Shown piece by piece: positions 71-34,317 of a stretch of DNA of 64,000 nucleotides (the first letter of the stretch is position 1; each line of letters begins with the position of its first letter). This DNA comes from Armatimonadota bacterium. Its GTDB lineage: Bacteria > Armatimonadota > Fimbriimonadia > Fimbriimonadales > Fimbriimonadaceae. The DNA lies in the NCBI GenBank assembly GCA_018268315.1, contig JAFDWU010000002.1, positions 1 through 64,000 of the forward strand, read 5' to 3'. Both the position numbers and the translations under genes were made by a program. The notes beneath the pieces were generated by a model, which was given only the letters and a program-made list of their open reading frames with translations, was not told where the DNA came from and did not search any database.

Positions 71-190
71 GGGTGATGAAGAACAAGGAACGCTAGCTAT
101 TTGTTGATGGTAATGCTTGGCCCCATTCCCCTCCGAATGATTTGGGTGCCGGACAAAGCGATACACGACTAGCAGCGAACCGAATGAGTT

Positions 191-222
191 AAGAGGGCTC
201 CAGTCTGGGGCCCTCTTATTAT
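191..222 (+). terminator. Rho-independent terminator after the left-edge gene
   Basis: The arms AAGAGGGCTCC and GGGGCCCTCTT pair over 11 bases with one G-U wobble around a short AGTCT loop, followed by the T-rich tract ATTATTT. It faces the plus strand and lies between the partial plus-strand gene and the convergent minus-strand gene ending at 325. The rest of 71-324 shows no other feature I can support. Confidence 0.75.
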
Positions 223-324
223 TTGACTTTCGAGTCTATAGCAGATCGCAAGACGTAAGGCATGCGAAACCGATACTCAATCTCCCAGGCGCGATCCGCA
301 AATCCCCATTTGGTTCGCGCCCTT

Positions 325-8687: not shown

Positions 8688-8718
8688 TCTTTCTTTTGCC
8701 CCTAAAGACTCCTTCAAA

Positions 8719-13289: not shown

Positions 13290-13319
13290 ATCTTATCCGT
13301 ACTGCCCGTGGAGTGTCAA
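13290..13319 (-). promoter_or_regulatory. Sigma-70-type promoter for pilMNOPQ
   Basis: On the minus strand a perfect -35 box TTGACA (13314-13319) and a -10 box TAAGAT (13290-13295) are 18 bases apart. The predicted start of transcription lies about 20-25 bases before the pilM ATG. This suggests the alignment and secretin genes can be transcribed separately from the giant minor-pilin genes upstream. A short GGGAG sequence precedes the ATG. Confidence 0.7.
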
Positions 13320-13419: not shown

Positions 13420-16400
13420 CTATCCGCCAGACACGACCGAGTCGAATTGCGGTGACAGCGTCTGGAAGAAGATGTCTCCACGCCCAAACCGAGTGGTGTG
13501 CCAGAACATCCAAACTAGGCCGCGCCGCATGTTATAAGGAGCGGTAACCGTCGTGCTGGTATCGATATCGCGAACCTGCTGCAACGGATCTACGAACAAA
13601 GTCAAACCTGCTTCGTTAACCGGGTGATCCATGATTACCGGCGCTTGAGACCTTTCCGAAATGAGCCTGACCGGCGCCGTAACCACGATCGGCGTGGTAA
13701 GGGCATTTCCGGTGATCGGATCGGCGCCCGTGTAAGTGATCGTCACCGTCTGGTCCTCGTCCGCGGCTTCGAAGTACACCTTCCCCGCCGAGGGATCGAT
13801 TTGGTAGAAGCTAGTGGCGCCGGATACTGCGAAGCTCGCAATCGAGCCTCCTGCATTCGTGTAGACCGGCGTAGGCAGCGCAATTCCCAGCCTCATAGTT
13901 GACATGAAGGGTCGGGCCGCGTCGCTCGATCCGCCAGCTCCGCGCGAGTATGTGAACCAATACCTGTCTGCCGTTGGCTGGTTCGGATCAGTCGTCAGCG
14001 CCGCCGTGTTATCCGGCTTTGCCCAATAGCTGAACTGAGTAGCGCCTTGAGGAGCGCCAACAAGTCGCCAGTCGAACGCCATGGATGGATCACTGAACCC
14101 GCTCTGGCCGGAGCTTACGCGAAGGAACGTAGGCTGGTAGGTCAGCGCCAACTGAATGCCTTGTGGCAGGCGAAGCGAGGACAACCTCACCACGCCGGAG
14201 TTGGGATCGATTATCGCCGTACCGCCAAGAGTTGTTGTAAAACTGATCACGCCGCTTGAGCGATCAGTCGTCCGGGTTCCCGCAACCTCAATGTTTGTGT
14301 ACACGCCGTTCACAACGGTTTCCAAAGTCACCGGAGTCGATGGATTCGGATTCCAAACAAGACCCTGGGTCTCGTACTGGTTATGAGCAGTGTCGTATTC
14401 CAGGAGATCTCGCGTTCTTAATGGCTGATAAGCGAGCCCAGTTGGGTTGCCGCTTGCATCGGCATTGAGGCGGCACATGTAGATTTCCTGCGCCTGACGG
14501 CCGTTCAGCTTGCCAGAGAACGCAACATCGATCACCTTCGACGTGCCTCGGTATAGCCTTCCGACCGCGGATGGGCTCGATACCGATTCCATCGCCGCCG
14601 GCATCGGGATAGCCGATTGCGTTCCAAACGAAGTGCCATCAAACGTTACGTACTGAATGCCCTTGTCGGTGCCGTAGAAGATCACCGCAGCGCCATTGGA
14701 AGCCGTCTGCACCACGCTCGTCTTGCGCTTTGGCAGCAGCGTTTCGGATTGCATGTCGGTCATCTTCGCGGTTGAGCCGTTGCACGTCAGGTCAGTCAGC
14801 GTAATTGCGCCGCCCGCTCCAATCGTTAGGATCGAAGCGAAAAGACGATTCTCTGTGATTCTGCCAACCGGAGTCTGCTTTTGGGCGTCGCCCACGAAAG
14901 CCATCGTAAGCGAGGAGAATGGGGCGCCGGTCGGATTGAACGGATCAACGGTGCCGGTTTCGGGGAACGAAGCGCTGTGGAACCTTGCCGTACCGGCTAC
15001 GATCGAGCCGCCAGTGGTAGCCGAGTCGAACAGAACATCCGGCGAAATGTAGGACGGATCAGAAGGATTGGTATCCGGGAACGGACCGACCGATTGGTTC
15101 ATCCATTGGCTTGACGAAGCCGGTGTCCAACCCAAGAGATCGTTTAGCGGGCTTAGAACGCCACCGCTGGGCAGACTGTGCCAATTGGGAAGTGCTCCCG
15201 CAATGCTCGTAAGATACAGCCTCAACTGAGGCAACGGATCAGGGTTCGCGGTGGTGGACGGCACAAACTGATCGCGATCCGAGACGAAAGCCATCACAAG
15301 GTGGCCGCTTGCAGCATCTCGCGCCGCCGCCGGCTGAAGATTCTCGTAATTGAAGTTGCCGGAGGTGAAGATCGATGAGTTATCAACCATCGGCGCTGCG
15401 TACGGCTGGACGGTCGTCGTCATACGAGACTCGCCCACCACGAACTTCAACGTAAGGAACGGATCGGCCTGGTTTTCGCCCGTCTGCAAGATTTCGTCAG
15501 ACGTGCCGGTGTCCTCGATGATGCCAACCCGCTGGGTATAGCTGCCAGCCGGGAAACCGACGGGGACAGAAACGCTGATCTTCGCATCACCTGAGGCCCC
15601 GCTTACTGCTTGGTGCCCATCAATGCGCGACTTGGGATTGACGTCAAGCCTTGTGCTGCCCAGATAGCTAACGCGAGATTTCATCGCCACTACCGGATTC
15701 GTCAGCGCGAAATTGGTAGGAATGGTCTGCGAATCCAGAGTTGAGTGGAGGCTCACTGAGCCGTCCAACCAGCTATTCGCCTCGTTCGTCTGGGAGTACA
15801 CCGGCCAAGGATAGATGTTCGACGCGACTTGGTAGCCTTTCGCAAGCCTCATGTTGATGAGATTCACGTTGCCGTCGTTCATCACGATGAATGGCTTGAA
15901 TATCGGCGCAAACGCCGTTGGATCGTACGTGGTTCCCGCCGTACCCGGGCTGATTGGCGTGTAACCTACGCCCGAACCAAGAGTTCCAAGGTCCACAATC
16001 GGCGAGGCAACCGAGAATCGTTCGTCAATCGGCACTCCAAGCGCGTAGTTGAACGTTCGATACGGAGATCGCTTACTGAGCGGGTCGAAGACGCCGTTTC
16101 CAAGCGTATCGATGTACACCACCATCTTGCCAACGTAGTTGGAGGTCGGCACGTTGGCTCCCGAGCTATCCGTCCAGCTGTTGAACGCGTTGGGCGGCTG
16201 GAACTTCGGCACCATCGCCTCGAAATCAAATTGGGTCAGCTCCATCGTTCGCGTTGCGATGTTTGCGGGATCGGGAATCGTTGGCGGAATTAGCGAGACG
16301 CCGGAGAACACAGGGTCGCCTGAGCCACCCGTTTGCTGGGTCACGGCAATTCTTTCGCGCTTGATATCTGGGTAGTCAAGGCTCGTGTTGGGGAAATTCG

Positions 16401-19400
16401 TTGGCAAGTCCTCAAAGCCCACGAAGGGCGCAGGCAGTGGCTTAACGACGGTTGGTCCGTTCATCCAAGCAAGGTCTTGTCGAAGGACGCGAACGTTGGT
16501 AAGGCCGCCCGCACCGTGCAGCAAACTGAGCACCGAGCGATCAACAAAGTAGACACTGGCAATGCCGTTCTGGCCGTGCACGATATTGCCCGGCGTTGTC
16601 GTTAGGCGGCTCTTGTCATTGCTCGGGTCGCTATATACGTTGGTCGAATCGTTGGTTGTTGTCTCCGCCTTGGTAAGGTCGGTGGTGTAGCCAATGCTTT
16701 GGTTATCGATTGGATCGCCCGATCCATCAACCTTCATCACCAAGCCGAGCGGATTGCCGATCTTGAAGTTAAAAATCGAGGATGTGGGGTCGGTCGAGTA
16801 GTTCGCACCCTTGTAATTCAACGAGAAGAACACCGTGGCGCTTCCCGGCGCAAGGGCAAACTGGCCGCTTCCATCAAGCGGGTACTGGACCAGCGCGAAG
16901 CCATCAAGAACGCCGGACGGATTGTAAGAGTTGCCCGAATCCGAAGGAGCATTAACCGAGAACTTGAACGAAGGAGTCGTAACCGGCGAAGTCATGCCGG
17001 CTACACTGAGAGTTGCGGTTACCAGGGCATTCACCCCTACCGTCTGTGGGTCTGCCGGGAAATCGTAGAACATCAGGTACAGGGTTTGCCCCCACTCAAA
17101 TGCGGTTGAAGGATCTGCTGCCGCCGAACCCGTGGCTTCCGCGTAATCGCTGGATAGGCCGGTGAGAAGCTTCTCAAACTCCGTCTTCGTGATCAGCTTA
17201 ACCTTGGCTTGGTTAAAGGTCACGTTGCTTGGGTCGTTAGGCGGCACGCCCGGGTTTCCAGGGGCCTCCGTCGGATCATAGCCGCCCGCCAAGCCACCGT
17301 TACCGTGGAAGGCCATGGTGTAGCCAACCTGATCGCCGGTCACCATGAAGGTCTGGCCAACTGCAAAACTGTTCTCAAATCCACCCGCGGCGGTATATTC
17401 CCACGCTTCGCGGGCTCCGCGACGATTGACATCGGCGGTCCGCGCAAAGAGACCTTCTATTCGCCCGTCAGTTGTCGGAACCATGATGAGCGGGAACGGA
17501 TTGCGGACTCCAGAATTGTCGAATGCGTTGAACCACGCAAAGGTAAGCGGTCCATGGACGCTTGCCTGCAATTCACTGGTCTTCCACAGGATCGTGCCAT
17601 CGGACGCCTTGAGCGCGTAGATGGTGAGATTCTCGTTCGACACAAAAACGGTATCGCCCTGACCGCTTGTACTCATGTTGGCGTCGCTGGCCGTCGTCGG
17701 TCCGCCAAGGAAGTCGTCGGCTGGCAAGGACGGTTCGCCGGTGAACGTCCAGTTCACGGTTCCATCGTCAACCTTCAAGGATAGGAACTTGCCAGGGTTG
17801 CCAAAGTTGTCTTTCAGCGTTCCAACGAACACCGAGCCGAAATCGACGGCAGGGGTGCTGACAATCGCCCCAAGTGTGGGCGATGTTGCGGAGGGGTACA
17901 TCCAAAGCGGGGTTGTCGTTAGGTTGGAACTGTTCCCTACCGCATCAAGCGCATAGACCCTTCCCTGCGGCGCAGGGACGATTACGAGCGCCTGGCCACC
18001 CGTCGTTGTCGCAAAAGCAACTGAGCCCCGGAAAGCGCCAAGCGCGCTCGACATCGGCGTGGCCGGGTAGTCATCCGGATAAGTCCAATAGCGCGTGGTC
18101 GTGCCCGGCTTGTTGTTGACCAAGTCCATGTCGCCGCGGCCTGTCATGTCGATGCAGTAAACACGCCCGTTCGACGCAGCAATATAGAGCCGATCTTGCC
18201 CACCCGAAACGGATAAGTGCTGGATCATCGCGCTGCTAATGTCAAAACCGTTCGGCATGACGGCGATTCCGCCGGGACCGTCAAGGCCCGCCACGTGGTT
18301 CGGGTCCGTCCAACTCGGATTTGCGGGGTCTGGAGTGCTTGGGTATGTCCAATAAACCTTGGTGCCGCCAAGCCCATCGCCAATCGCGTCGACGCAATAG
18401 ATCTTCCCGTCTTCGCCCGCAAATACGGCGACATCGGTAGGAACCGGCGAGCTTGAAGGCGACAGCTTGAGATCGACAGTTGCGAGAACCGGCGTGGACT
18501 TAACCGTGTGGTTAGCGGTTCCAACAAACCAAACGGCGTCGGCGTACGACTTTCTTGTGAGATCGCCGGAGTCCGCGCTGTAGTTGGTGATGACCACCGA
18601 CAGCGGATTTCCAATTGAGTTCGCGCTCGTAAACTTCCGCGTTCCTAGGCGGAACCAACCGCTGGCAACCGATTGATCGATAGTGACAGTGGTGACGGTC
18701 GCGCCTTCGTGAATCTCGTAGCGAACGCTGTGGCCAAAGGTTTCACCGTTGCTATCGCCGGGCAGCCACACGTACAAATCGTATTGGCCGTCTTGCAGCA
18801 CGGGCGCGTAGGTTACGTTGTCGGCAGTTCCTAGGTTGTTAACAATCGGGGCTGCCAAATAATCGGTGCCGTAGTAATTCGAAGCCGTGGTCGCCGAGGT
18901 AAAGCCAGCTGAAAAGGTAACGCCGGAGCTGAGGTCGTCAATGATTCCGCCCGTATCCTTGGTTTGTGGGCTGTAAGACCAAGCAAGCGAACCATCCCCC
19001 AAGTTGTAGCAATTTGCCAACGCGGTAACCACCGTCGCAGGCTTGCCATCCTTGATAACGCTGGTGTTCTTGTTGTAAACCGTAATTGCGCGCTTGTATG
19101 TAACCGATGAAGTCGTCCATCCGCGGATGATCGGGGTGGCTGTGATGCTTCCACCGTCGGGAATGGCTCGCACCGCGTCCGCGTAAACGTACAGGCCAGG
19201 CGTGCCAAGCAACGCTCCGCCCGCATCGCGAGGGATGGTGTTGTAAATCGTGATGATAAACGGGTGGGTGCCGTCGTAATCGTAGAGCCGATCGGTGGCT
19301 TTGCCGCCATTGCCAAGCCTTACCCAGCCGCCGCCGGATACGTTGGTGTCAACGACGTCGATCTCACTTGCGCCCGCGCCGTACTGAATCTTCACCACCA

Positions 19401-19935
19401 TGTACCGCTGCTGGTACACGCCATTGGTGGGGCCAACTGGCACGTTGATAGAAAGCGCATAACCTCGCGGCAAGATATCAGTGGGTTGCACAGTGAAGCT
19501 TGCGGTTTCCAGACTGTCGCTAGGATTCAGCTTCAGCGTGGGGTCGCTTCCAAGCGCAGAAGCTATCGTCGGAGCATAGAGGTACGGAGGCGTACCGGCC
19601 GCATAGCCCGATGGGAAGTAGTAGCCGCCTGCCAAACCGGTAGTTGGCACAGTCCAGCCCGCGGTAAAAGATGTTGCGGCGATGTTTGTGTTGTCGACGA
19701 GGTAGCTGTGGCCGCGATTTTCGGCAATGGTTGGGTGGAACCAGAAGAGATCGCCTTGGCCGGGGCCGTTGGTGCTTTGGATTGTGGGATCGTTCGAGAT
19801 CGGATCGACTGTCTTGCCGCTTCGCCCGTTTTCACCCTTATAGGTTGGGCTGTCTTGGGCAAACGCTAAGCAACTCACACCCGCCAATGCGGCGATAACA
19901 ATAAACGCACGCTTCACAGTCCAATAAACTCCCAT
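13420..19935 (-). CDS. Giant exported beta-propeller protein with golvesin-like repeats, in PilY1 position, 2171 aa
   Basis: A signal peptide ends near SCLAFAQ. Two golvesin-like beta domains can be seen at about residues 90-260 and 335-475, each with a GGWVRLG or SGWFRLG motif followed by YADAV. Repeats of the PQQ/quinoprotein-propeller type follow (about 490-880), such as GRVYCIDMTG, GRVYALDAVG and TIYALKASDGTILWKTSEL. The remaining approximately 1250 residues are Ser/Thr/Gly/Pro-rich beta sequence, consistent with an extracellular adhesin-like protein. It is the last gene before pilM and follows the PilX-like gene and another giant, the place PilY1 occupies elsewhere. I do not see a recognisable PilY1 C-terminal domain, so the functional parallel is inference. 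A GAGG sequence 8 bases upstream supports this ATG. Confidence 0.75.
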   Translation of the reverse strand: MGVYWTVKRAFIVIAALAGVSCLAFAQDSPTYKGENGRSGKTVDPISNDPTIQSTNGPGQGDLFWFHPTIAENRGHSYLVDNTNIAATSFTAGWTVPTTGLAGGYYFPSGYAAGTPPYLYAPTIASALGSDPTLKLNPSDSLETASFTVQPTDILPRGYALSINVPVGPTNGVYQQRYMVVKIQYGAGASEIDVVDTNVSGGGWVRLGNGGKATDRLYDYDGTHPFIITIYNTIPRDAGGALLGTPGLYVYADAVRAIPDGGSITATPIIRGWTTSSVTYKRAITVYNKNTSVIKDGKPATVVTALANCYNLGDGSLAWSYSPQTKDTGGIIDDLSSGVTFSAGFTSATTASNYYGTDYLAAPIVNNLGTADNVTYAPVLQDGQYDLYVWLPGDSNGETFGHSVRYEIHEGATVTTVTIDQSVASGWFRLGTRKFTSANSIGNPLSVVITNYSADSGDLTRKSYADAVWFVGTANHTVKSTPVLATVDLKLSPSSSPVPTDVAVFAGEDGKIYCVDAIGDGLGGTKVYWTYPSTPDPANPSWTDPNHVAGLDGPGGIAVMPNGFDISSAMIQHLSVSGGQDRLYIAASNGRVYCIDMTGRGDMDLVNNKPGTTTRYWTYPDDYPATPMSSALGAFRGSVAFATTTGGQALVIVPAPQGRVYALDAVGNSSNLTTTPLWMYPSATSPTLGAIVSTPAVDFGSVFVGTLKDNFGNPGKFLSLKVDDGTVNWTFTGEPSLPADDFLGGPTTASDANMSTSGQGDTVFVSNENLTIYALKASDGTILWKTSELQASVHGPLTFAWFNAFDNSGVRNPFPLIMVPTTDGRIEGLFARTADVNRRGAREAWEYTAAGGFENSFAVGQTFMVTGDQVGYTMAFHGNGGLAGGYDPTEAPGNPGVPPNDPSNVTFNQAKVKLITKTEFEKLLTGLSSDYAEATGSAAADPSTAFEWGQTLYLMFYDFPADPQTVGVNALVTATLSVAGMTSPVTTPSFKFSVNAPSDSGNSYNPSGVLDGFALVQYPLDGSGQFALAPGSATVFFSLNYKGANYSTDPTSSIFNFKIGNPLGLVMKVDGSGDPIDNQSIGYTTDLTKAETTTNDSTNVYSDPSNDKSRLTTTPGNIVHGQNGIASVYFVDRSVLSLLHGAGGLTNVRVLRQDLAWMNGPTVVKPLPAPFVGFEDLPTNFPNTSLDYPDIKRERIAVTQQTGGSGDPVFSGVSLIPPTIPDPANIATRTMELTQFDFEAMVPKFQPPNAFNSWTDSSGANVPTSNYVGKMVVYIDTLGNGVFDPLSKRSPYRTFNYALGVPIDERFSVASPIVDLGTLGSGVGYTPISPGTAGTTYDPTAFAPIFKPFIVMNDGNVNLINMRLAKGYQVASNIYPWPVYSQTNEANSWLDGSVSLHSTLDSQTIPTNFALTNPVVAMKSRVSYLGSTRLDVNPKSRIDGHQAVSGASGDAKISVSVPVGFPAGSYTQRVGIIEDTGTSDEILQTGENQADPFLTLKFVVGESRMTTTVQPYAAPMVDNSSIFTSGNFNYENLQPAAARDAASGHLVMAFVSDRDQFVPSTTANPDPLPQLRLYLTSIAGALPNWHSLPSGGVLSPLNDLLGWTPASSSQWMNQSVGPFPDTNPSDPSYISPDVLFDSATTGGSIVAGTARFHSASFPETGTVDPFNPTGAPFSSLTMAFVGDAQKQTPVGRITENRLFASILTIGAGGAITLTDLTCNGSTAKMTDMQSETLLPKRKTSVVQTASNGAAVIFYGTDKGIQYVTFDGTSFGTQSAIPMPAAMESVSSPSAVGRLYRGTSKVIDVAFSGKLNGRQAQEIYMCRLNADASGNPTGLAYQPLRTRDLLEYDTAHNQYETQGLVWNPNPSTPVTLETVVNGVYTNIEVAGTRTTDRSSGVISFTTTLGGTAIIDPNSGVVRLSSLRLPQGIQLALTYQPTFLRVSSGQSGFSDPSMAFDWRLVGAPQGATQFSYWAKPDNTAALTTDPNQPTADRYWFTYSRGAGGSSDAARPFMSTMRLGIALPTPVYTNAGGSIASFAVSGATSFYQIDPSAGKVYFEAADEDQTVTITYTGADPITGNALTTPIVVTAPVRLISERSQAPVIMDHPVNEAGLTLFVDPLQQVRDIDTSTTVTAPYNMRRGLVWMFWHTTRFGRGDIFFQTLSPQFDSVVSGG

Positions 19936-19951
19936 TTCTAATCCTCAAGAA

Positions 19952-22900
19952 TCATTTGCGAATGGCAAACAATGGTGTTTGCAGACCCCTCGCCCCTTGA
20001 ACCGAGGAAATTGAAACTCTAATGCTGCTTGTACCGAATCCCAAGTTCTTCTTAGTGAACCAGAAACCTGGAACAGTGGTGTCAACCGAACCTCCACCAA
20101 CCGGCGGATCCAGCAAGCCGCTCACTTCTAAGACTTCGCCGGAAAAGGCACTGTTCCCGTAAGTCGTCCCTTCGATCGAGTTCACGATGAGCACGGAGCC
20201 GTTGGCCATGCGCTTCGCGAACGTTGGATGGAAGGATCGAACGTTCGATGAGTTCGGTGAACCCGGATCGAGCGGATACGTTTCCGCGAGCCCGCGCATA
20301 TGAGAATACGCTTCTTTTGGAAGCATCCAGTTCACGCGCCAGGCGGTGGTAGCCATGTTGGTGTGGTCCTCCGGCTCAAGCTCAAATACGCCATTGGTAT
20401 CGGTGAACATGATCGTGTAATAGGCGTTGCCGCCCGTGTCCACCTTGGTTTGCATTGTCAGCGAGTTCAAGCCGCTAATCTTGCGGCTCAGGCGCTTCGA
20501 AATGGCATCGGATGCGAACGATCCCGAATCGTCGTTCCAGAACATATTCGCTGGAATCACAGGGTCGGTGTCAGCGGTCAAGATCGCGCTCGTCGACCAG
20601 TCCTTTGTCAGCGAGGTGATGTCGTACTGGTTGATGACGATGGTAGTCGGGCCGTCGAACAATACGATGCCGCTGTTTCCGGTTCCGGAGATATCAGGAG
20701 TCGTGCCGCTAATCGTCGAAATGCCCTGCTGCCCGCTACTCGGCATTTCCGGACCAATTCCCGCCGCGATCGCGTAGTGCGGCGACACGCCGGGAACGTA
20801 AACTCGGGCAAGGCTTCCGTATTCAAAGCCCTTGCCGCTTGCGCTGTTGGCGCTATGGCCGTAAAGCACGCCGAGCTGCGGAACGCCGCTAATCGCGACG
20901 GGTCCTAGAATCTGCCTAGTTGATGGATCAGCTACGTAGCGGTCAACCAACTCGAGCAACCGGCGGTTGCCGCGGTCCGCGACCAGGTAATGGGTCCAAT
21001 ACTCCAATGCGTTCGGGCTATTGAGCAGGTTTCCGGCGCCAAGCACATAGCCGCTCCATGTCACTACATCTGCCGGATCGGCAAGCTTATTAGCCTCGCT
21101 GGCCTGATAGCCATCCGGCCGGTAGACGGGATCGAGGATGAAAGAATCAATGCTACGGACCTCTCGTCCGAACCGGTCCACTCGAACAACCCGTTGCGCC
21201 CCAGAATCGACGATGAGGATATCCCCGCCGTCGAGGTAGTACGCCCGCGACGGCCGCAACAGTTTGTGTATTTGGCCCGCGTTCGTAAGATCGCCTTGAG
21301 GTCCCGTTTGGTAAGTGGATTCGAGCGACCAAATTGGATTGCCCGCGCTATCGACCTCGATCAAACGGCCTTGATCGCAAACGAGATAGACCGATGGCTG
21401 ATAGGCATAGGTGGCATCATTGCCCCAAGCGCCCATCACGCCCTCTCCGGCTACCGTTCCAACGATCCGGCGTTGAGCCCAGTTGCCCGCAGCGGCAATA
21501 GTGGGATCGTTCCCCGAATTACCGTCGACCAGACTGTAGTAAATCTTGTTGTCAGAACCGATCGCGAGATCGCCGGTATTGTAGGTGCTCGAATTCGACC
21601 AGGCTGCCGGCAAGGATGAATCCGGCAAGGTTTGAAGCAGATGAGTTGTGTAGTCAGCAACGGTTCCTGCCCCTTGCGGCCAAAGCACAACCGGGTTGGT
21701 CTCAATGCTCGACGGGCTTGTGTAAAGCATTTGGAGAACTTCGTTCTGCCAAGGACGAGCCGAATCCGGCGAAATAAACTGCCCAGCCGATTGAGCCGTG
21801 CTCATCGCAGCCACGAAACCGTTCTGAACGGGCACTGCATTGGCCAGTAGGCTGCCGAGCAGGGAAGTCCCCGAAAGGTAGACCGTCGACCCTGCAACCG
21901 CGGGTCGTCCCGTAAGGCTCGCGCCATCAAACACGGTAAACCAGTTAAGCGGGCTCCATCTGCCCCCGACCTGATCGGGCCATATCACCTGATCCGGCTT
22001 GCCGGGAACCTTGAGCACTACCGGCAGACTGGATGAGAATGCGTTCTGCATCGGCCCATTAATGCTGCTCATCAGGCTATCAACTCTGATCGCCCCATTA
22101 GCTGCTCCCTGCTCCAGTTCGTACGAATACTGGGTGGGCTGCATGGAAACCGTGGATGTTGGGTTCGACTTGATCGAGCTGGCGGTGTAATCGTATTGGA
22201 TCACCTGAACGCCGTTGGGAAGATCGCCAACCGGGATGATAGGCGTTTCCGGCGTTAGCTTAAAGCTCATCAGCACCGAGGAAGGCGTAGATGTGCCTAC
22301 CTTGAAGCCAGAAGCAGTAACGAACACCTGATCGGAGGCAATCGTCGGCCCTCCCATGAAGGTCATCTTCTCGATGTCGCCGGTCAAGGAAGGATCAATT
22401 TGCGAGACGCCGTCAATATCGCGGAATGAGCTTGGAATCGTGGTGTCGCCGCCTGAAACTTGGATGACGTGCGAATCCATCAAGTCAAACCGATACTTCA
22501 GCTTAAACTGCCCTCTTCCCTCTTCGCGAACCGCGTAGAACGCTCCGCCAGGATGGGCGTTAACGGAAGAATTATCCGCGCTGCTTGTCGCGACGAACAT
22601 GGTTCCGTCGGGGCCAAGCGCAACGTGGTCCATAACCCTTAGCAAGTGGCCGGTGTCATCCGGGAAGTTGATATTCCCGCGAATCATTGCCGCAAAGTTC
22701 CCGGATGCCGCCACCTTGCCGATGTCAACGTTGTAGTCGATATAGATCTTAGCGACATCCGCGGGAAGCGGAGAGGTCATGTTGATATCGACGACACCCT
22801 GATTCTGCGTCCAGACGCCGGTGAACAGGGTGTTCATGTCGGTCTGGTTGTATACGTCGCCATTTGCGCGCACAAGCGTCAGCTTGATAGAGAGCGGATC

Positions 22901-24748: not shown

Positions 24749-27700
24749 TGCGCATTCGCCTCACCGAAGTAGGAGAGAACGGGGCACACTGGTAGACGTG
24801 GTAGCGGGGGCAACACGTTCCCTGCGGCATCCGTTCTAATAGGAAGGTTTGTAAGGTTGTCCAAGAATCCTCCCGGACGCCCGGTAGCCAGGACGGGATC
24901 AAACGTTACCGAAAGGTTCGGCACGTAAAGCTTCGTGGCAAAATCCCACCCTGCCGGTCGATGACTTGTCGGAATGTTATATCCGCTCTCCCCAAGTTGG
25001 CCCGGAATCCAGCCCCACTTCTTCAGCCACTCAGCCTGCTGGCCGATAGGAGGAGGCATGTTTTCCGAAATCGCTCCGATGATCTGAATTCGCTCATCAA
25101 TCGGTTCACCGTAGAACGGGGTGAACGGTGAAGTCCCGTAGTTGTCTCGGCGGGCCAAAACGCGATCCGCCTGACTGCCGCCAAGAGCTTGGTAATTGTC
25201 GTGGCGATCATTCGGGTTCGGGTTGAACCACGGGCCAGGAATGACGAAGAAGCTGCCTTCTTCGGCGTACATCACCGCTTCGATGCGAATGTCATGCGGG
25301 ACGATTGCCGCGCGAGCAAGCAGATAGTCATTGGTGGCAATGCTGCCGATGCTGGAGGCAACGATCTCAAGGACATTCATCGACTCGGCCAGCGCGGTGT
25401 AAGTGCCTCGGGTCAGTGCATCTGTCAAATTCGGGAAAGTGAAAGTCGCTGTCGGATCGCCGCTCAGTAGCGGATAGACCTCGGTCTCAAACTTCGGCGC
25501 TCGTTCCCACGCCTGAGCGCCAAGCCCCAAGAACGGAATCTGGGCGGCTGGCGAATCGACGTCTCGATATGGCGCGTAGAGCGCGGCAGAGTTTGAAAAC
25601 CGATAGTTGATGTTAGCGTTCGGCTGTCCCGGGCCCGGATAGTAGTAGTTGCTGCCGGGCGCGGTCACCTTGCGCTCGAACAAATACTGCGGCGTTGCAA
25701 GACCTGCGTTCACATTAAGGTTGATAAAGCTGTTGCTCGCCGGACCGTCATCCATCGTATGCGTCAGCATCAAAAGGAGATCGGTTGGTACGACGTCGGA
25801 CGAAGTACCGCCTGCGTTATAGCTCTTAACGTAGGGTTGATAAGTTGCAGGGTCGCCAGGGGTTCCCGTGGTGGGGTCCAGCAAGAACTCTGTCCTAAGT
25901 CCAATCTGCCCAGCCGCTGCCGGGATGCGAAGAGGATTGTAGGCAGGCGTTGAAAGCACTTCCTTTGCCTCGGCAGGAGTCGTTCCCTGCGCAGTGCCAA
26001 AGAACTGGGTGGTGTTGAGCACCACGTAGTCCTTTGCCAAGAGGGCCATAAGCGCAGTCGGCGGCGTAGTAATCAGCTTGCTTGGATCCGGGTTCTCGTC
26101 CGTGATCATATTCTGAACAAGGCCCTTTGTCAGGCTGCCCTCGACATAGATCGAGCCGCCAGAGACCACCGTAATCTGCGTGTTGGTCGGATATTGACCG
26201 CGCACCCGAACGTCGCCTGCAAAGTAGAGAACGCCATTGAAAGGCAGCCCATTCGTGAAGTTAACACTGGACCGCGTCGTGTTATTGATATCCACGCCGG
26301 GCGTCAAGGAGTTCACGATATAAACCTGGTTGCCAATCTTTCCAAGCTTGAATCTCAACTGAGCCTGGCCGCTGTCAGTGCCGTCCGGCTTCTTCCAAGT
26401 TCGGTTCGATCCGCGCTGATCGCGAGTGATAATGAAGCCGTCGGGCAAGAAAGTGAGATATGCGCCGCGTGGAACGTAGTAGGGGCCCTGCCAGCCAGAG
26501 TAAGCGCCACCGTTGTTCGGATTTAGCCAATCGTAAACCAAGGACTGCGAAGCGCCGACTTGTACGCGACCGGCTTCATCGCTGGGAACCTGGCGATCAT
26601 CCGCATTGTCCACGTACACGCCGCGTCCATGACCATACTTGCCGTTATTGGTACCACCAAGCTGCTTTCCGCTAAGAGCAGTCATTAGGACGTAACGGTT
26701 CTCTCCGCTGTCTGGATCGATTCGCTCAATGGAAGGAGGCGCCTTGTACGGAACCGCTCGCGTAAAACCCTTCGTGTCGGTCTTTTCCTGGGAATCGCGG
26801 AGCACGCCCAGGTAGGTACTGAACCCAGGGTCTTGGCTATCAAGGACTCCATCTGGATTCCCTGATTCCTTCTTAAGAACTGCCGTGCACTCGTTCCATT
26901 GGCCAGCGGTGCCGGAACCATCTGGACAGAGACCGAAGAAGGAAGTATTGAGCGTAAGCGAGGCGTGCTTAGTCGGATCTGAGATCACGCCATCCTCGTT
27001 AACGCCTTCAATAGTCCCGTTAACCCTGATACCATCGCCAACGTATGGCGTGATGGCCGCCACCACATTGCCGTAAATTTTCAAGTCGGCATTCACGTAC
27101 ATGGAGCCCATCGATGGAAAAGTTGAGCTTGTTTCCGTGGGCGATGAGGTCTTCGGATCGTACGGATTAATCAGCTTCACCCGGCCTCCGAGGTTAATCG
27201 GAGTGTTCACTGGCTCAGTCGTCCAGGTATCGACACCGCCTGGCGTCGTGTGGGGCGTGTAGGTTGTCCCGAGGTTGAACGGAAAGCCGATTTCAGCCGG
27301 ACGCGAAACGTTGTACTTGTTGCTTATATAGCGCGCCGATTCTATGATTCCAATTGAGGCGAAGGCAATCCGCTTCGTCTCCTCTCCGGAGAACGGCGTT
27401 CGCAGGGTCGTCGGATCGCTTGGGTTAACAACGCCCGTTCGACCAACTGATTCGATAATCAAGTAGTTGCGGAGCAGATTCGGCTGCCGAATCGTGCCCG
27501 GCGCGCTTGTTTGGAAAACCGTCGCGTCGCTTGGCGCATACCGTACGCGAATGAGAGCACGGCCGTTGTCGAACCGAACTCGTCTGTAAGGGCCAAGACC
27601 ATCGGGGCCGCCCTTATCAGGAAAGCCCAAACTTGCGCGAAGATATTTCGCATCGGGATCGTTTGGCAGAGGCGCTGTCGGAGTTCCCCGCCAGTCTGCG

Positions 27701-27930
27701 CCTTCTTGGCTGTTAAGGAGCTGGGAATGCGCGTATCGAATTCCTGCTTCGGCAAGGTCTCCCGCCAGCGTTCTGCGCACCGTCAGATTGCCGGATCGGA
27801 GGCCCCGGCTTACGATGCCAAGAAAACTAAGAGACAGGAGCAGTAGCACGCCGAGAATGATCAGCGCTATGAAAAGCGTCTGGCCGGCAACCTGGAGGCG
27901 ATTTCTGTAGGCGGTCGTTTGCATCGTCAT
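24745..27930 (-). CDS. Supersized PilX/GspK-like minor pilin, 1061 aa
   Basis: After a short basic leader, AGQTLFIALIILGVLLLLSLSFLG (about residues 15-38) is a pilin-type hydrophobic helix. RTLAGDLAEAGIRYAHSQL follows, the pattern of PilX_N/GspK proteins. There is no Glu at +5 of the mature helix, as known for GspK-type tip subunits. The remaining approximately 950 residues are beta-rich, with solenoid-like phrases such as YFAGDVRVRGQYP and GGSIYVEGSLTKG. Normal PilX is about 200 residues. It is coupled to its neighbours (7-base gap upstream, ATGA overlap downstream). Predicted role: pilus-tip subunit carrying a large extracellular domain. Confidence 0.8.
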   Translation of the reverse strand: MTMQTTAYRNRLQVAGQTLFIALIILGVLLLLSLSFLGIVSRGLRSGNLTVRRTLAGDLAEAGIRYAHSQLLNSQEGADWRGTPTAPLPNDPDAKYLRASLGFPDKGGPDGLGPYRRVRFDNGRALIRVRYAPSDATVFQTSAPGTIRQPNLLRNYLIIESVGRTGVVNPSDPTTLRTPFSGEETKRIAFASIGIIESARYISNKYNVSRPAEIGFPFNLGTTYTPHTTPGGVDTWTTEPVNTPINLGGRVKLINPYDPKTSSPTETSSTFPSMGSMYVNADLKIYGNVVAAITPYVGDGIRVNGTIEGVNEDGVISDPTKHASLTLNTSFFGLCPDGSGTAGQWNECTAVLKKESGNPDGVLDSQDPGFSTYLGVLRDSQEKTDTKGFTRAVPYKAPPSIERIDPDSGENRYVLMTALSGKQLGGTNNGKYGHGRGVYVDNADDRQVPSDEAGRVQVGASQSLVYDWLNPNNGGAYSGWQGPYYVPRGAYLTFLPDGFIITRDQRGSNRTWKKPDGTDSGQAQLRFKLGKIGNQVYIVNSLTPGVDINNTTRSSVNFTNGLPFNGVLYFAGDVRVRGQYPTNTQITVVSGGSIYVEGSLTKGLVQNMITDENPDPSKLITTPPTALMALLAKDYVVLNTTQFFGTAQGTTPAEAKEVLSTPAYNPLRIPAAAGQIGLRTEFLLDPTTGTPGDPATYQPYVKSYNAGGTSSDVVPTDLLLMLTHTMDDGPASNSFINLNVNAGLATPQYLFERKVTAPGSNYYYPGPGQPNANINYRFSNSAALYAPYRDVDSPAAQIPFLGLGAQAWERAPKFETEVYPLLSGDPTATFTFPNLTDALTRGTYTALAESMNVLEIVASSIGSIATNDYLLARAAIVPHDIRIEAVMYAEEGSFFVIPGPWFNPNPNDRHDNYQALGGSQADRVLARRDNYGTSPFTPFYGEPIDERIQIIGAISENMPPPIGQQAEWLKKWGWIPGQLGESGYNIPTSHRPAGWDFATKLYVPNLSVTFDPVLATGRPGGFLDNLTNLPIRTDAAGNVLPPLPRLPVCPVLSYFGEANAQ

Positions 27931-27937
27931 AAATCCT

Positions 27938-30145
27938 CTAGCGCAGGAAGTTCCTCACGGTTGCGTCCACCTTGACCGTCACTTGCTGAGCCGCCTGGCT
28001 CGCAAACATCGAGACGCCGCCCGGGTAGTTGCGAACGGTAATCATCACCGCAAGCTGCTGCTTGGTATCGTAATCCACCGCAATCAAGTCCTTGGCCTGG
28101 TTGAACTGGAATCGATAGGAAACCTGGAAGGCGCCTTGCGGCAGCGGCACGTTCGGGTCGCTGTTCAATTGGATATAACCTGCTTTGAACCGCGGCTGAT
28201 AAACAGCGCTCAAGAAGTCGCCCGGCGTATAAGTTGCCGGTGGTCCGGAGCTGAAGCCCAGCGCGGTGTAGTCCGCAGGCTCGGGCAGGTCCGTGTAGTT
28301 GATTTTGTATTGATTTACGCCTGGGCTCGTTGTCACCCTGGTGTAGCGCACGGGATTGCCATAATTCGGGCCGGGGTTCTGATCAGGACCGATCACCACT
28401 TCGCTGCCAGGAGCGATTGATCCAGGGAAGCCCACCAGCGGATCGAGGGGGCTTGGCGTTCCGTCGTACTTGTTTGCCGTGCCATCGGTGAGCAGCAGCG
28501 TTCCATCGTTTTGACAGACCGCGCGCAGATCGATAAAGCGATGGATGTCCGGCTTTAAGAACGCATAAGCGGGGTCGTTCCAGACTCGATTGAAGCAGTG
28601 GTTGATTTGGTAGTCCGGGTTGCCGGAATCCTTCGGGGAATACGTAGCGCCAGCCCCCGAGTCCACAAGTGGGCTTTGACTCAAACCGGTGAAGACGAAG
28701 GGCTGGTTGTCAGGAACCGGGCTAACCGACGACGTGTTGCCGACTTCCGAAATTTTGAAGCTGGTTGTCACCTTGCCGTTGCGGTAATCCGGAACCAGCG
28801 GTCGGAAGAGGGGACCCCACTTTGCCCGCTTGGTTGAATCCGCAAGCCAGTTCGATCGACCGCTTGCCGCTTGGAGTGCCTGCGAATAAGGGTAGTTCCT
28901 CGTTCCGGCGATTCCGTTTTGATAGGCATCAATGCTAAACAACTCTACGCCGCTATTGAACTCGCTCTGCCCTGCGCTATAGGTTCCCGGGTCAACTCCA
29001 ACAATGCTCCAGCCAGGGAAGGTACTGCTGGCGTCATTGCGCCCAACCAGGTAAGGCAGCCCATCCGTCCAGGTGCTGTTAAACACCCGAATGACGGGAT
29101 CGTTCCAAGATGCAAATTGGGTTCGGAAGACGTCGGCAGCAACTGCTTGAGCATTGTCGGTTTCTTCGCCCTGGCGAACGGCAACCTGCGCCTCCGCGGG
29201 TTCAGAAGCAACTCGCTCCGGCTTAAACTGAATCAGCGGGACGACACCGTCAAGGATGGTCTTCGTGGTACCGGGACCCGTCTTCACACTTCTCGTCCTT
29301 GCAATGACCTGGTCGTAGCGGTGAGCCTGGGTTTGGATTGTCGCCTTCTTGAGCCAGTTCGTAATTCGTGTTTGCTTCGCGGCTCCCGAGGGAGTCAACG
29401 CAAAAGTGGAAGGGTTGTAGTCCGTTCCCGGAATCATCGTAAAGAACGTCGGGTCATCAAGGTCCGTCACCTGCCCGCCCGATGCTTGGAACAGATCAGT
29501 ATTCGGCAAGTAGGTTTTCGCAACGCCGTTATAGAGGTAGGGAGCAACTTCAGCCCGGTAGAGGACAAAGAGGTTATCCTGGGTGGAATCCACTGCCATC
29601 AGGACCCCAGAATACGGTTCGCGATATCCTGTCTTGAGCTCAAGAGGATCGCGTAGGCCGATCCAGTATCGAATGATGGTCGATCCGGGAGCGACGGGAA
29701 GCACGATCTGTCCCTTCGGCGCCGTCAGCGTTGGGTCAACCTTGCCGGTGGTTGGGTCCGTAAGAACCGGGTTGCCGCTGCCATCAAGAACGGGAGATCC
29801 TTCAGCAGGCTTGACAATGTCCAGCTTCGCGTAGGAGAGGTCAAACGTGGCAGTTGGATGAGGGTTCGTCACCGGAACCTGGTCGCCAATGGCAGCCGGG
29901 TAAACGATGGTGATCGCGCCCTTCAATCCGCTGTTATCGCGAACGCCCACGCTCTGCTTGATCTCGCTGGAAATTCGCTCTCCTAACTGGCGCGCCTTTT
30001 CCTGCGAATCGGCGATGCCTTGAGCTTGCCGTGTGGCGTTAAAGCTCTGAATCAGCGGCACGATGAGCACGGTGAGCAAGACTGCCGTGATCGCCAAGAC
30101 CGTTAGAAGCTCAACAAGCGTGTATGCGCGTCGCATCATCTTCAC
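27938..30145 (-). CDS. Supersized PilW-like prepilin, 735 aa
   Basis: The leader MKMMRRA is followed by YTLVELLTVLAITAVLLTVLIV, a class III signal with Glu at +5 and Ala instead of Gly at -1. The helix runs into ATRQAQGIADSQEKARQLGERISSEIKQSVG, the polar half of a PilW-type helix. About 660 residues of Pro/Gly/Thr-rich, beta-type sequence follow; PilW itself is usually about 270. The GTG start overlaps the stop of the PilV-like gene (GTGA). Position after the PilV-like and before the PilX-like gene supports the assignment. Confidence 0.8.
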   Translation of the reverse strand: MKMMRRAYTLVELLTVLAITAVLLTVLIVPLIQSFNATRQAQGIADSQEKARQLGERISSEIKQSVGVRDNSGLKGAITIVYPAAIGDQVPVTNPHPTATFDLSYAKLDIVKPAEGSPVLDGSGNPVLTDPTTGKVDPTLTAPKGQIVLPVAPGSTIIRYWIGLRDPLELKTGYREPYSGVLMAVDSTQDNLFVLYRAEVAPYLYNGVAKTYLPNTDLFQASGGQVTDLDDPTFFTMIPGTDYNPSTFALTPSGAAKQTRITNWLKKATIQTQAHRYDQVIARTRSVKTGPGTTKTILDGVVPLIQFKPERVASEPAEAQVAVRQGEETDNAQAVAADVFRTQFASWNDPVIRVFNSTWTDGLPYLVGRNDASSTFPGWSIVGVDPGTYSAGQSEFNSGVELFSIDAYQNGIAGTRNYPYSQALQAASGRSNWLADSTKRAKWGPLFRPLVPDYRNGKVTTSFKISEVGNTSSVSPVPDNQPFVFTGLSQSPLVDSGAGATYSPKDSGNPDYQINHCFNRVWNDPAYAFLKPDIHRFIDLRAVCQNDGTLLLTDGTANKYDGTPSPLDPLVGFPGSIAPGSEVVIGPDQNPGPNYGNPVRYTRVTTSPGVNQYKINYTDLPEPADYTALGFSSGPPATYTPGDFLSAVYQPRFKAGYIQLNSDPNVPLPQGAFQVSYRFQFNQAKDLIAVDYDTKQQLAVMITVRNYPGGVSMFASQAAQQVTVKVDATVRNFLR

Positions 30146-32220
30146 TGCTGGCCCCCTTGGATAAACGTTTGGGTCGAGGCAACTCTAAAGTTGCGCGCGT
30201 AATCTTCGAAAGCGGCGAGATTCTTCACGAGATCGTTACCCAGGTTCAAGAAGCCGCTATTAGTGACGACTCTTGCTGTCAGAGATACGCCCTTCACACC
30301 CCGTACGGCATAGCCGTAGGGCGGCTGATAAGTCCCCGAGGGCAAATCGAAGCAGGCACTGGCATCGACCTCGGTTAGGTCAACAAATGGATACGGAATG
30401 TCCGTAGTATCTGGTCGCTGAACCACGAATGAATAATCGTTAAGCGACGTTGGCTGCGTTGTACTGGTTGGGCTCCCGCACTCGGCGCCTGTTCGATACC
30501 AGCCTTGCTGAAGCATCACACGTTGGCCAACGGTTACGCCTGGGAAATACATCCGGTTCGTGTGGCCGCCGGTTGTCCCGTCAGATCCGCCGACGTAATA
30601 CTGCCCCACGTTCGGGGCGCTATAAGTCTGCTGATAGATGTTTGAAGCCTTAAACGCCTGAGCGGCAACTTCCTGGTTCGCGCGGTAAAGCACTCGCAAC
30701 TTGCGACCCGTGAGATTCAAAGCGTTTGGGTTCTTCGTCATGTCCTGCTGCACGCTAACGCCAGTCTGTCCCGGATAGACCACCAACACCACAGTTGTGG
30801 CGTCCTCTGGAAGGCCCGTCTTCGCAACCTTCGATTTCGTGACACCGTTCCGAAATCCGATAATGCCGTGAACAGAGTCAAGCACTACTTCATCCGATAG
30901 CACCACTGCGCCTGTCTCCTGATCTTCAACGATGACAGTCGGATTAGTTGTAATCGTTGGGATTGGCGTATTCGCCGAAACAGACGTGTCAACCTGAGCC
31001 GGGTCAATATCCAGGGTAGGCACGTTCAAGCCCTTGAAGCGGGTGTAGTCCGGATTCTGGGATTCACGCGCCTTGATCCCGAACGAGGACACGCGCAGGG
31101 CGACATTAGCGGTGTCCGCCACAGAAAGGTTCTCGTGAAGGATTCGCCAGTCGTACACGTCATAGGAAACCTTCGCAATTAGTGGCTGGCGGCCCTTTGA
31201 CGTGTACTGGAACGTATTGAATCCTGCAGGGTTAAAGAGCAAGAGTCCATGCGCCCAATCGGTCAGCTTGTACTCATAGGGGTCGGTAGAGAATGCAGTG
31301 ACCTGACGGAACTGCTTCAGTACGTGAATCGTGAACTGATCCACGCTGAGCAGGGACTCGCCCGCTCCCAGCGTGATAATGCCGGGCAGGGATGTGTCGC
31401 CAGATGGTTGGACGATGTAGTAGGTGTAGTAACCGCCGCCGGGGCTGGAAGGCGGAACAATCTGGCCGGTAAACGTTCGGCGAACCTTATCTCCGCTGAA
31501 CGGTTGAACCCAATAATCGAAGGTCACCCGGAACGTATTCGCAGGGCCTGATGACGGACCATTGATAATGGGCAGTTGGATCTTCGCGTGATCGCCGTCA
31601 AGCCCGGTGGTGAAATACTGATAGTTGAGAGCATTTCCATCAGCAGAAGCGTTAGCAATCTGCTCCATCTCCGAGCCAAATATCTCGAACAGCGGCACGT
31701 AGGTCAGGCCGGAGGCATAGGTATCAGAGGAGGTCAAAACCGGACCGAAGCGCAAAGTCACCAGCGATCCAAAATCAACTCCGCCCAAAGACCGCGGTGA
31801 AGGGATGTGGTATTGATCATCAATTACCCGGCGGAACAGATTCGCGCCAGATACATAGGGCCACAGCCCAGCCGGATGCCCATTGATGAGCACCATTCCG
31901 CTCTGGTTAATCTGGTTTCCCGCAATACCTAAGTCTTGAGGCGACCGCGTGGGATCGGAATCGACGTAGACGACGCCAGCCTGATAGAGGTACTTCACCG
32001 GCAGAATCGCAGTTGGGAGATCTTCTGAGTTATGCAGAAGTTCATCTCGCACATCCGCAGCAAGAGATGCCGCAGCTAGACGAAACCGCGATTGGGCCAG
32101 AAGCCGAATACCCCCCGGGAATATCCTTGCGACGGCAAGGATGCCGGTCAAGAAGACCACTATGACGACAAGCAACTCAACGAGCGTTGTCGCAGCGGTG
32201 CGGCGCAGTTTCATCTTCAT
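30142..32220 (-). CDS. Supersized PilV-like prepilin, 692 aa
   Basis: The leader MKMKLRRTAA precedes TTLVELLVVIVVFLTGILAVARIFPGG, a prepilin helix with Glu at +5, Ala at -1 and an unusual Thr at +1. The FPGGIRLL and SRFRLAAASLAADVRDELL segments extend the helix. The rest is beta-rich with several Tyr/Gly/Pro-rich stretches. PilV is normally under 200 residues. It lies 14 bases downstream of the FimU-like prepilin and overlaps the PilW-like gene. Confidence 0.8.
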   Translation of the reverse strand: MKMKLRRTAATTLVELLVVIVVFLTGILAVARIFPGGIRLLAQSRFRLAAASLAADVRDELLHNSEDLPTAILPVKYLYQAGVVYVDSDPTRSPQDLGIAGNQINQSGMVLINGHPAGLWPYVSGANLFRRVIDDQYHIPSPRSLGGVDFGSLVTLRFGPVLTSSDTYASGLTYVPLFEIFGSEMEQIANASADGNALNYQYFTTGLDGDHAKIQLPIINGPSSGPANTFRVTFDYWVQPFSGDKVRRTFTGQIVPPSSPGGGYYTYYIVQPSGDTSLPGIITLGAGESLLSVDQFTIHVLKQFRQVTAFSTDPYEYKLTDWAHGLLLFNPAGFNTFQYTSKGRQPLIAKVSYDVYDWRILHENLSVADTANVALRVSSFGIKARESQNPDYTRFKGLNVPTLDIDPAQVDTSVSANTPIPTITTNPTVIVEDQETGAVVLSDEVVLDSVHGIIGFRNGVTKSKVAKTGLPEDATTVVLVVYPGQTGVSVQQDMTKNPNALNLTGRKLRVLYRANQEVAAQAFKASNIYQQTYSAPNVGQYYVGGSDGTTGGHTNRMYFPGVTVGQRVMLQQGWYRTGAECGSPTSTTQPTSLNDYSFVVQRPDTTDIPYPFVDLTEVDASACFDLPSGTYQPPYGYAVRGVKGVSLTARVVTNSGFLNLGNDLVKNLAAFEDYARNFRVASTQTFIQGGQQ

Positions 32221-32234
32221 ACTCTTTCTCGTAG

Positions 32235-33086
32235 TTATGGAATCGCTCTAAAGGATTTATTGCTTATTTCGAGAGAGTCGATGAGCTTCACCGATCCACT
32301 GAGTGTCAAAACGTAGTCGCGTCGTTCGCGGAGGGTGTCTCCATCTCCGGTGTATTCCCGGAAATAGCTGTCCCAAGTGATGATCGTATTATCCGGAGGG
32401 CTTGAATACCCTAGCTGGCGCGGATCGTCGTTGGCGTTTCCGCTCGTCAATCCCCAACCCGTCCAGAACGGCGCATAGTGAATTTCAATGCGCGTCCCGT
32501 TGCCTGGCAATCGGACCTTGCCGATGTCGTAGCCGTCAACGTTATAGAACCAGGAAGTGATCGTTCGATCGCCCGAGCCGGAGCCTTCGGAGTTGATGTT
32601 TTCGTTAATGCCAAGGGCACTGTCAATATCGATGTCCGTTCTGCGCAGGATGCGTGAAACGGTAACTCCCGGACCGTATTTCTGACGATGATTTGCATCC
32701 TCACCCGGGCCAAGCGGAGTCGGATCAATATTCGGCCAGACAGCCGAGGTGTAAGCGTTGCTTGCTGAGGAAACCATGGATGGCTTCATATCCCCGATGC
32801 CGCCGATGCGCTTCGGATAAAGGAATCCCCTAACCTTCTCTGCTGGCACAACTGACCCGTCTGAAGTGTAAAGGGATGCATATCCCAGGAGGGCCGGAGG
32901 ATAAGCCTCTTGATCGTAACGATAAAGCTGGAGCGCCTGATGAATCTGTGCCATCTGGGCGGCATCCGTTGCCCTTTTGGCCTGGTCCTTGGCGCGAGAG
33001 AAAACGGAGAAAGTTAGGCCCGCAAGTATGCCGATGATCGAAATGACCACCAGCAGTTCAACTAACGAAAAAGCCCTTAACTTCAT
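32235..33086 (-). CDS. FimU/GspG-like prepilin, 283 aa
   Basis: The leader MKLRA is followed by FSLVELLVVISIIGILAGL, the best class III prepilin signal of the set (Glu at +5, Ala at -1). The region DAAQMAQIHQALQLYRYDQEAYPP is the alpha-helix end typical of GspG/pseudopilins. The C-terminal domain has several Asp/Gly-rich loops (EYTGDGDTLRERRDYVLTLSG). It is the smallest and first of the four pilin-like genes, the FimU position, and could be the core initiating minor pilin or a major-type subunit. A GGGAGAGG sequence lies upstream of the ATG. Confidence 0.85.
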   Translation of the reverse strand: MKLRAFSLVELLVVISIIGILAGLTFSVFSRAKDQAKRATDAAQMAQIHQALQLYRYDQEAYPPALLGYASLYTSDGSVVPAEKVRGFLYPKRIGGIGDMKPSMVSSASNAYTSAVWPNIDPTPLGPGEDANHRQKYGPGVTVSRILRRTDIDIDSALGINENINSEGSGSGDRTITSWFYNVDGYDIGKVRLPGNGTRIEIHYAPFWTGWGLTSGNANDDPRQLGYSSPPDNTIITWDSYFREYTGDGDTLRERRDYVLTLSGSVKLIDSLEISNKSFRAIP

Positions 33087-34261: not shown

Positions 34262-34292
34262 GAATTGGCCCGACAATGTGGATTGTCGGGCC
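34262..34292 (-). terminator. Terminator after pilC
   Basis: GGCCCGACAAT and its exact reverse complement flank a 4-base loop (34267-34292), an 11-bp perfect stem. On the minus strand AATTCATTTTAAG follows, a broken U-rich tail. It lies between the pilC stop and the pilD start, so it may separate a pilBTC unit from the pilD/minor-pilin unit, at least in part. Confidence 0.7.
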
Positions 34293-34317
34293 AAAACGTT
34301 TGGTGAGGAAGGCTCGG

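Follow-up and report, generated by a model that had tools for sequence, protein, structure and literature searches.

What would a type IV pilus carry at its tip if most of its minor pilins were supersized? The question is raised by a block of six genes in a stretch of 64,000 nucleotides (the window) from an Armatimonadota bacterium of the family Fimbriimonadaceae (assembly GCA_018268315.1, contig JAFDWU010000002.1, positions 1 to 64,000 of the forward strand). The six open reading frames (ORFs), here called P6 to P1 in the order of transcription, lie on the minus strand from position 33086 down to 13420 and encode proteins of 283, 692, 735, 1061, 1598 and 2171 residues, roughly 6,500 residues in total. 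From the genes, their order, the pattern of glutamate at position 5 (Glu5), the folds of P3 and P2 and a calcium motif, all of them computed here, we infer that the block most probably encodes the priming or tip complex of the type IV pilus (T4P) specified by the flanking genes, in which two propeller adhesins would cap four minor pilins, all but one of them supersized.

A preliminary description of this DNA had listed the six ORFs with their positions and lengths and had read the junctions between them as 14 bases, GTGA, 7 bases, ATGA and 16 bases. All six are present as described, and the spacing recomputed from the coordinates agrees: gaps of 14, 7 and 16 nucleotides (nt) at P6-P5, P4-P3 and P2-P1, and overlaps of 4 nt at P5-P4 and P3-P2. 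Since genes for PilB, PilT, PilC and PilD lie 5' of the block and those from PilM through the secretin 3' of it, the block is placed inside an otherwise complete T4P locus (Table 1). The host genome has 2.8 Mb and contains a single copy of P3.

The six-gene block is a core trait of the phylum and not a local oddity. Relatives of P3 were detected by a single-sequence search in 112 of 121 genomes spread over Armatimonadota, and the block is therefore not due to chance. A P3 profile gave matches in seven of the nine other genomes, three of them full-length-like (G069, G019 and G025) and four consisting of short fragments or of the N-terminus only; no match to this profile was obtained in two of the 121 genomes, each about 60% complete. 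All 20 genomes compared for gene order, which represent many families, keep the order and orientation P6-P5-P4-P3-P2-P1; in one of these, G020, P1 was not seen and a contig end is nearby. PilB-T-C-D precede the block in the 20 genomes wherever the contig permits. The PilM-to-secretin genes follow it in all same-family genomes and in several distant ones, and were not found beside it in the distant-family genomes G082, G062 and G022. The profiles of this order survey had been built from the very genomes that they were used to search, so its E-values are circular; independent evidence is provided by an unconditioned BLASTP search and by the gene order.

All visible junctions were also kept in 80 named loci, some of which come from the same 20 genomes: P6-P5 in 66/66, P5-P4 in 68/68, P4-P3 in 74/74, P3-P2 in 74/74 and P2-P1 in 59/59, with median gaps of 36, -1, 1, -4 and 4 nt, respectively. 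P2 and P1 were one-to-one with the pilins in every locus examined. The median sizes from P6 to P1 were 303, 661, 726, 1031, 1586 and about 2300 residues, so large sizes are the rule in the phylum. Genes scattered in relatives would have refuted the reading given in the preliminary description; instead, their order is found again across the phylum, as is their linkage to PilB-T-C-D and to PilM-secretin. The view expressed there that a set of this size is unusual holds outside Armatimonadota, but inside the phylum such a set is the rule. When GTDB genomes were scanned with one conserved motif, 101 loci were confirmed, and the 80 listed among them all belong to Armatimonadota or to unnamed or probably misnamed metagenome-assembled genomes (MAGs); this picture of the distribution outside the phylum depends on the one motif, which more distant relatives may escape. 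In some MAG loci one or two block genes are split into two or three ORFs (L093, L108 and L125, P2; L131, P3 and P4; L112, P1), probably by assembly frameshifts.

The minor pilins

The N_methyl/prepilin signature was detected by Pfam in P6 (3e-5) and P4 (4e-4) and weakly in P5 (0.09), and a class III prepilin signature with Glu5 was present in 67/67 P6, 67/67 P5 and 70/70 P4 sequences (three by eye). P6 may be either a FimU-like or a G-like subunit, because the GspG model is its best match (1.7e-12) and several other models come next. Two tandem P6-like pilins stand before P5 in several lineages (L108, L116, L118, L122, L128, L129 and L133; G082, G062 and G022). The PilV model TIGR02523 matches P5 in 20 of 21 relatives, with a best value of 1e-8 (1.2e-4 for P5 of the window), below the curated cut-off where a cut-off is shown. 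Relatives of P4 matched the prepilin model (20/21), Verru_Chthon C (18/21) and HpsC (17/21), the likeness lying in the N-terminal part. Conservation in P3 and P4 is higher at the two ends than over much of the middle, a pattern that is less clear in P5 and is expected if a variable insert interrupts a pilin fold; judged from sequence, P4 and P5 would also have an interrupted fold of this kind.

P3 is assigned to the PilX/GspK type because it lacks Glu5, whose absence is a trait of PilX homologues and GspK (PMC7541494): of 69 scored sequences, none had Glu at position 5, which was I, V, L, A or M instead. Tip complexes are capped by a subunit of this Glu5-lacking kind (PMC10191384). P3 itself had no match in the library, its N-terminus reads as a PilX/GspK-type helix, and the GspK model matched one of 21 relatives. 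Together with the PilV likeness of P5, the missing Glu5 supports the fimU-pilV-pilW-pilX-pilY1 order proposed in the preliminary description. With regard to that order, P6 scores as GspG-like over FimU-like, and P1 and P2, though similar to PilY1 in fold class and position, are without the PilY1 Pfam domain.

The GspG-like P6 and the P3 relative that matches GspK would also suit a pseudopilus of the type II secretion system (T2SS), with P1 and P2 as secreted substrates and not as parts of a tip, and PilY1 has been described as analogous to the substrates of a T2SS (PMC7541494). Such a system is improbable here, as the block is flanked by PilT and by PilM/N/O-position genes, P2 and P1 keep their one-to-one association with the pilins, and another cluster of the genome, which has small pseudopilins and an ATPase and a secretin of its own, is a candidate T2SS.

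An AlphaFold2 (AF2) model of P3 computed from 68 sequences (predicted local distance difference test, pLDDT, 87; predicted template-modeling score, pTM, 0.89) shows a 56-residue helix (18-73), then strands (116-131, 156-165 and 184-192), an extended beta-rich region and, at 1052-1057, a last strand that probably completes the pilin sheet. The best solved match of this model was ComZ from Thermus thermophilus (6QVI; Z 12.8, root-mean-square deviation (rmsd) 3.8, 262 residues), the next rows being at 8.5, and the alignment pairs P3 189..1052 with ComZ 128..512. The solenoid of ComZ follows the penultimate pilin strand and precedes the last one (PMC6561018). Residues 17-192 of P3 match a pseudopilin chain of 9a1f, an XcpGHIJK model (Z 6.5, rmsd 2.7). 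Foldseek gave no match below E 0.001 with the P3 model, so the ComZ match comes from VIA-align. As modeled, P3 has a pilin-type core with a beta module inserted before the last strand, the insert site being taken from alignment ranges and not from coordinates, and it appears to follow the ComZ plan at about twice the size. The pilin-type N-terminal core, whose absence would have refuted the reading in the preliminary description, is hence seen in P3, the one large pilin that was modeled, with a resemblance to ComZ, the very example named there.

Sequence relatives of P3 were not found in plasmids. A DUF4900-type beta-helix was considered for P3 and was unsupported by Pfam, with only weak FapA and MinC_C solenoid matches. 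A CBM35/CBM6-like region at residues 644-880 (Z 8.5) is not claimed, because such models have a background of 7-8, close to this value.

ComZ is a DNA-binding tip pilin, and as the closest solved structure of P3 it brings in competence, that is, the tip of a DNA-uptake pilus with P3 as a DNA receptor like ComZ and P2 and P1 as accessory proteins. The Thermus order PilA1-A2-A3-ComZ is the same H-I-J-K order, and a ComEC-like gene is present in the genome. Thermus PilA2 is GspI-like (PMC6561018). A DNA-uptake tip is nevertheless unlikely: a common fold with ComZ does not show a common ligand, adhesion is suggested by the two propeller proteins, one of which carries a calcium motif of the PilY1 type, and T4P can serve both adhesion and DNA uptake. 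To our knowledge, the Thermus ComZ gene is not followed by genes for propeller proteins.

The apparently exported propeller proteins

An AF2 model of P2 residues 22-1105 (pLDDT 85, pTM 0.88) matched quinoprotein/BamB-type propellers from about model residue 286-305, with Z up to 21.9. Among 19 relatives of P2, an N-terminal DUF4159 domain was found in 15 and NHL repeats, further on, in 6. The sequence DLDGDGNAD at residues 375-383 fits the calcium motif 1 of PilY1, Dx[DN]xDGxxD (PMC8833165, PMC13190605), and the motif was strictly kept in 47 and, in a relaxed form, in 58 of 62 aligned relatives. It arose anywhere in P2 in 8 of 2000 shuffles and is absent from the other pil proteins of the window. 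In the model it lies in a loop between the propeller strands 341-348 and 376-381 (model numbering, where 1 is P2 residue 22), as has been described for PilY1 (PMC8833165), in which the motif is not universal (PMC13190605).

P1 had Pfam matches to Golvesin_C (1e-10, residues 332-468) and PQQ_2 (1e-8), and Golvesin_C was found in 12 of 16 relatives. A quinoprotein/BamB-type propeller was recognized in P1 by a profile search against the PDB, with a long C-terminal part following it, and the C-termini are conserved in both P1 and P3. The two giants were not accepted as simple paralogues, their alignment being confined to one propeller stretch. Both are apparently exported, with hydrophobic N-termini ending in A-x-A-like sites (by eye). 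Polysaccharide binding may be hinted at by the Golvesin_C domain of P1 and by the CBM35-like region of P3, whose match is weak (Z 8.5) and close to the background.

P1 and P2 would work like PilY1 because of their fold class, their place after a PilX-like gene, their apparent export and, for P2, the calcium motif. BamB is among the propeller matches and the two genes come directly before pilM, which could also suggest BamB-like envelope scaffolds or secretin chaperones that are merely co-transcribed with the pilins. We regard this as very improbable, since a role like that of PilY1 agrees better with the size of the proteins, the DUF4159 and Golvesin modules, the location directly after the PilX-like gene and the conserved calcium loop.

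Flanking and other filament genes

The features of the locus are compiled in Table 1. The promoter- and terminator-like sites are consensus matches, and the numbers of such sites do not exceed those in shuffles; the hairpin between pilC and pilD is a possible border of transcription units. The secretin is split in the window into an STN-domain ORF and a separate secretin ORF with a slight overlap (7065-9309, minus strand), and two ORFs are present in relatives too.

Table 1. Features of the type IV pilus locus in the window, in the order of transcription
Feature	Size (residues)	Positions	Strand	Basis
PilB-type extension ATPase	601	36966..38771	-	Pfam T2SSE 3e-129 and MshEN
PilT-type retraction ATPase	428	35622..36908	-	Pfam T2SSE 6e-52
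PilC platform protein	425	34318..35595	-	Pfam T2SSF 5e-69, two stretches
Terminator-like hairpin between pilC and pilD, 13 pairs		34265..34294	-	Consensus scan only
PilD prepilin peptidase	355	33146..34213	-	Pfam A24_N_bact and Peptidase_A24
P6, small pilin, FimU/H (or G-like) position	283	32235..33086	-	N_methyl; GspG-like 1.7e-12; Glu5
P5, PilV/GspI-type minor pilin, supersized	692	30142..32220	-	PilV TIGR02523; Glu5
P4, PilW/GspJ-position minor pilin, supersized, GTG start	735	27938..30145	-	Prepilin, Verru_Chthon C and HpsC models; Glu5
P3, PilX/GspK-type tip pilin candidate without Glu5, giant insert	1061	24745..27930	-	AF2 model, ComZ match
Long helix plus opening strands of pilin-type core, P3 residues 18-192		27355..27879	-	Model secondary structure
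P3 residues 1052-1057, predicted C-terminal strand		24760..24777	-	Model strand, ComZ alignment range, conserved tail
P2, apparently exported PilY1-like protein	1598	19952..24748	-	AF2 model, DUF4159, propeller, NHL-like part
P2 calcium motif DLDGDGNAD, residues 375-383		23600..23626	-	Fits PilY1 motif 1
P1, apparently exported giant	2171	13420..19935	-	Pfam Golvesin_C and PQQ_2; PDB profile matches
P1 conserved C-terminal tail (LVWMFWHTTRFGRGDIFFQTLSPQF)		13444..13521	-	Similar tail in most of 19 phylum-wide relatives
Promoter-like site 5' of pilM, TTGACA-18-TAAGAT		13290..13319	-	Consensus scan only, 10/12
PilM	499	11760..13259	-	Pfam PilM_2 2e-50
PilN-position protein	282	10909..11757	-	No Pfam match; order after PilM kept in relatives
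PilO-position protein	316	9955..10905	-	No Pfam match; order conserved
PilP-position protein	198	9359..9955	-	No Pfam match; order conserved
STN-domain protein, N-terminal part of split secretin		8719..9309	-	Pfam STN 3e-10
PilQ-type secretin	579	7065..8804	-	Pfam Secretin 2e-37 and Secretin_N

Away from the block, two small prepilin-like proteins of 115 and 112 residues with a C-terminal Cys pair are encoded at G000:C1:332312 and C1:383809 (L163, L165) and are plausible major pilins by sequence. A second filament cluster at G000:C5:168250-178667 (L164) is T2SS-like, with GspE/F/G-like genes, a secretin and ordinary small pseudopilins. The totals for the genome above the cut-off were 4 secretins and 11 PilB/PilT-type ATPase matches.

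The proposed tip complex

A mechanism for the tip complex can be modeled on Myxococcus (PMC7541494). The neighboring PilD would cleave P6, P5 and P4 (H/G-, I- and J-like) and P3 (K-type), which would assemble via their N-terminal helices with P3 at the top. P3 would be a modular pilin of the ComZ type, in which a beta-rich module within the pilin fold takes up most of the 1061 residues. P2, exported separately, would dock on P3 as PilY1 does on PilX, for which strand addition has been described (PMC11046646); its propeller would probably be stabilized by Ca2+ in the DxDxDGxxD loop, with the DUF4159-like N-terminal domain facing outward, and P1, with its carbohydrate-binding-like domains, would add a second propeller to the cap. 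This complex would prime polymerization, exit first through the secretin and serve as an adhesive head, and retraction by PilT would pull on the bound target, most plausibly a polysaccharide or a solid surface.

Several observations weigh against the assignment of the block to a PilY1-capped tip. The PilY1 family PF05567 matched none of P1, P2 or the scanned relatives in Pfam scans, and the two proteins are for this reason named PilY1-like and not PilY1. We know of no precedent for two exported propeller proteins, instead of one, in a T4P tip operon. The scores of the PilV, PilW and GspK models are weak, and below the curated cut-offs where these are shown. Among the large pilins the fold evidence comes from P3, the modules of P4 and P5 lying outside the models, and the match of P3 to ComZ concerns the overall pilin-plus-solenoid layout, at 13% identity; a sequence search of the PDB with P3 found no sequence-level relatives, ComZ included. 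The PilY1 structure 3HX6 is missing from the 50 structural matches listed for P2, an absence that is no evidence in itself.

The nearest known system is the fimU-pilV-pilW-pilX-pilY1 cluster of type IVa pili (T4aP) in Pseudomonas and Myxococcus, with which the block shares the gene order, class III prepilin N-termini, near-coupled genes, linkage to the T4P machinery, Glu5 in the H, I and J members and none in K, and an exported propeller protein with Dx[DN]xDGxxD directly after pilX. It differs in that P5, P4 and P3 have 692-1061 residues, whereas their counterparts have about 180-280, and in its two propeller proteins without PF05567, the GspG-like P6 and the location between pilD and pilM. 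With ComZ, P3 shares a GspK-like pilin, a large inserted beta module and the K position, but it is about twice as long, shows no sequence-level likeness and is followed by propeller genes. Like the PilY1/PilC tip adhesins, P2 is exported (by eye), comes after the PilX-like gene, and has a variable N-terminal domain and a quinoprotein-type propeller that bears calcium motif 1 in a surface loop; it differs from them in an N-terminal DUF4159 instead of vWA or DUF4114, a calcium loop that comes early and not late, a second, NHL-like stretch and a larger size.

Giant or modular members are also found in other prepilin sets. The Verru_Chthon cassette A-D (TIGR02600, 02598, 02599 and 02596) is likewise prepilin-like, and its model A, with 1296 positions, is a precedent for a giant member, but P5 and P4 match B, C and D weakly and mainly in the N-terminal helix. 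P3 was rejected as a Verru_Chthon A protein: neither P3 nor its relatives match TIGR02600, and the TIGR02600 matches of the phylum are other, shorter proteins. The modular minor pilins PilB and PilC of Streptococcus sanguinis share the principle of a functional module placed on a pilin module for display at the tip (PMC8179133), whereas here a whole H-I-J-K set with three giants is present; the most extreme case in a survey of modular pilins had 860 residues (PMC8179133).

A more far-reaching form of the tip model is possible, and we offer it tentatively: a head of roughly 700 kDa in which three minor pilins carry large inserted modules and two propellers replace PilY1, having been recruited independently from quinoprotein/BamB-like propellers and having converged on the PilY1 calcium switch, which would make it an undescribed kind of tip.

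What is known of PilY1 and of minor pilins comes mainly from Proteobacteria and Myxococcota. No description of this six-gene set was found in the searched literature, and the Fimbriimonas genome paper names pil genes but not this set (PMC4072686). All parts have precedents, in T4aP tip complexes, ComZ, PilY1 and modular pilins; their combination, scale and phylum-wide fixation are new as far as the searched literature shows. ComZ of Thermus is a rare solved giant tip pilin, and here a single locus found throughout a phylum joins a ComZ-like K pilin to PilY1-like propellers, which suggests that large tip complexes of modular design are the norm throughout a diderm phylum. For each subunit, dozens of diverse sequences are now at hand for co-folding, and two questions become directly testable: how a PilY1-like cap is held by a K pilin, and how a head of this kind gets through the secretin.

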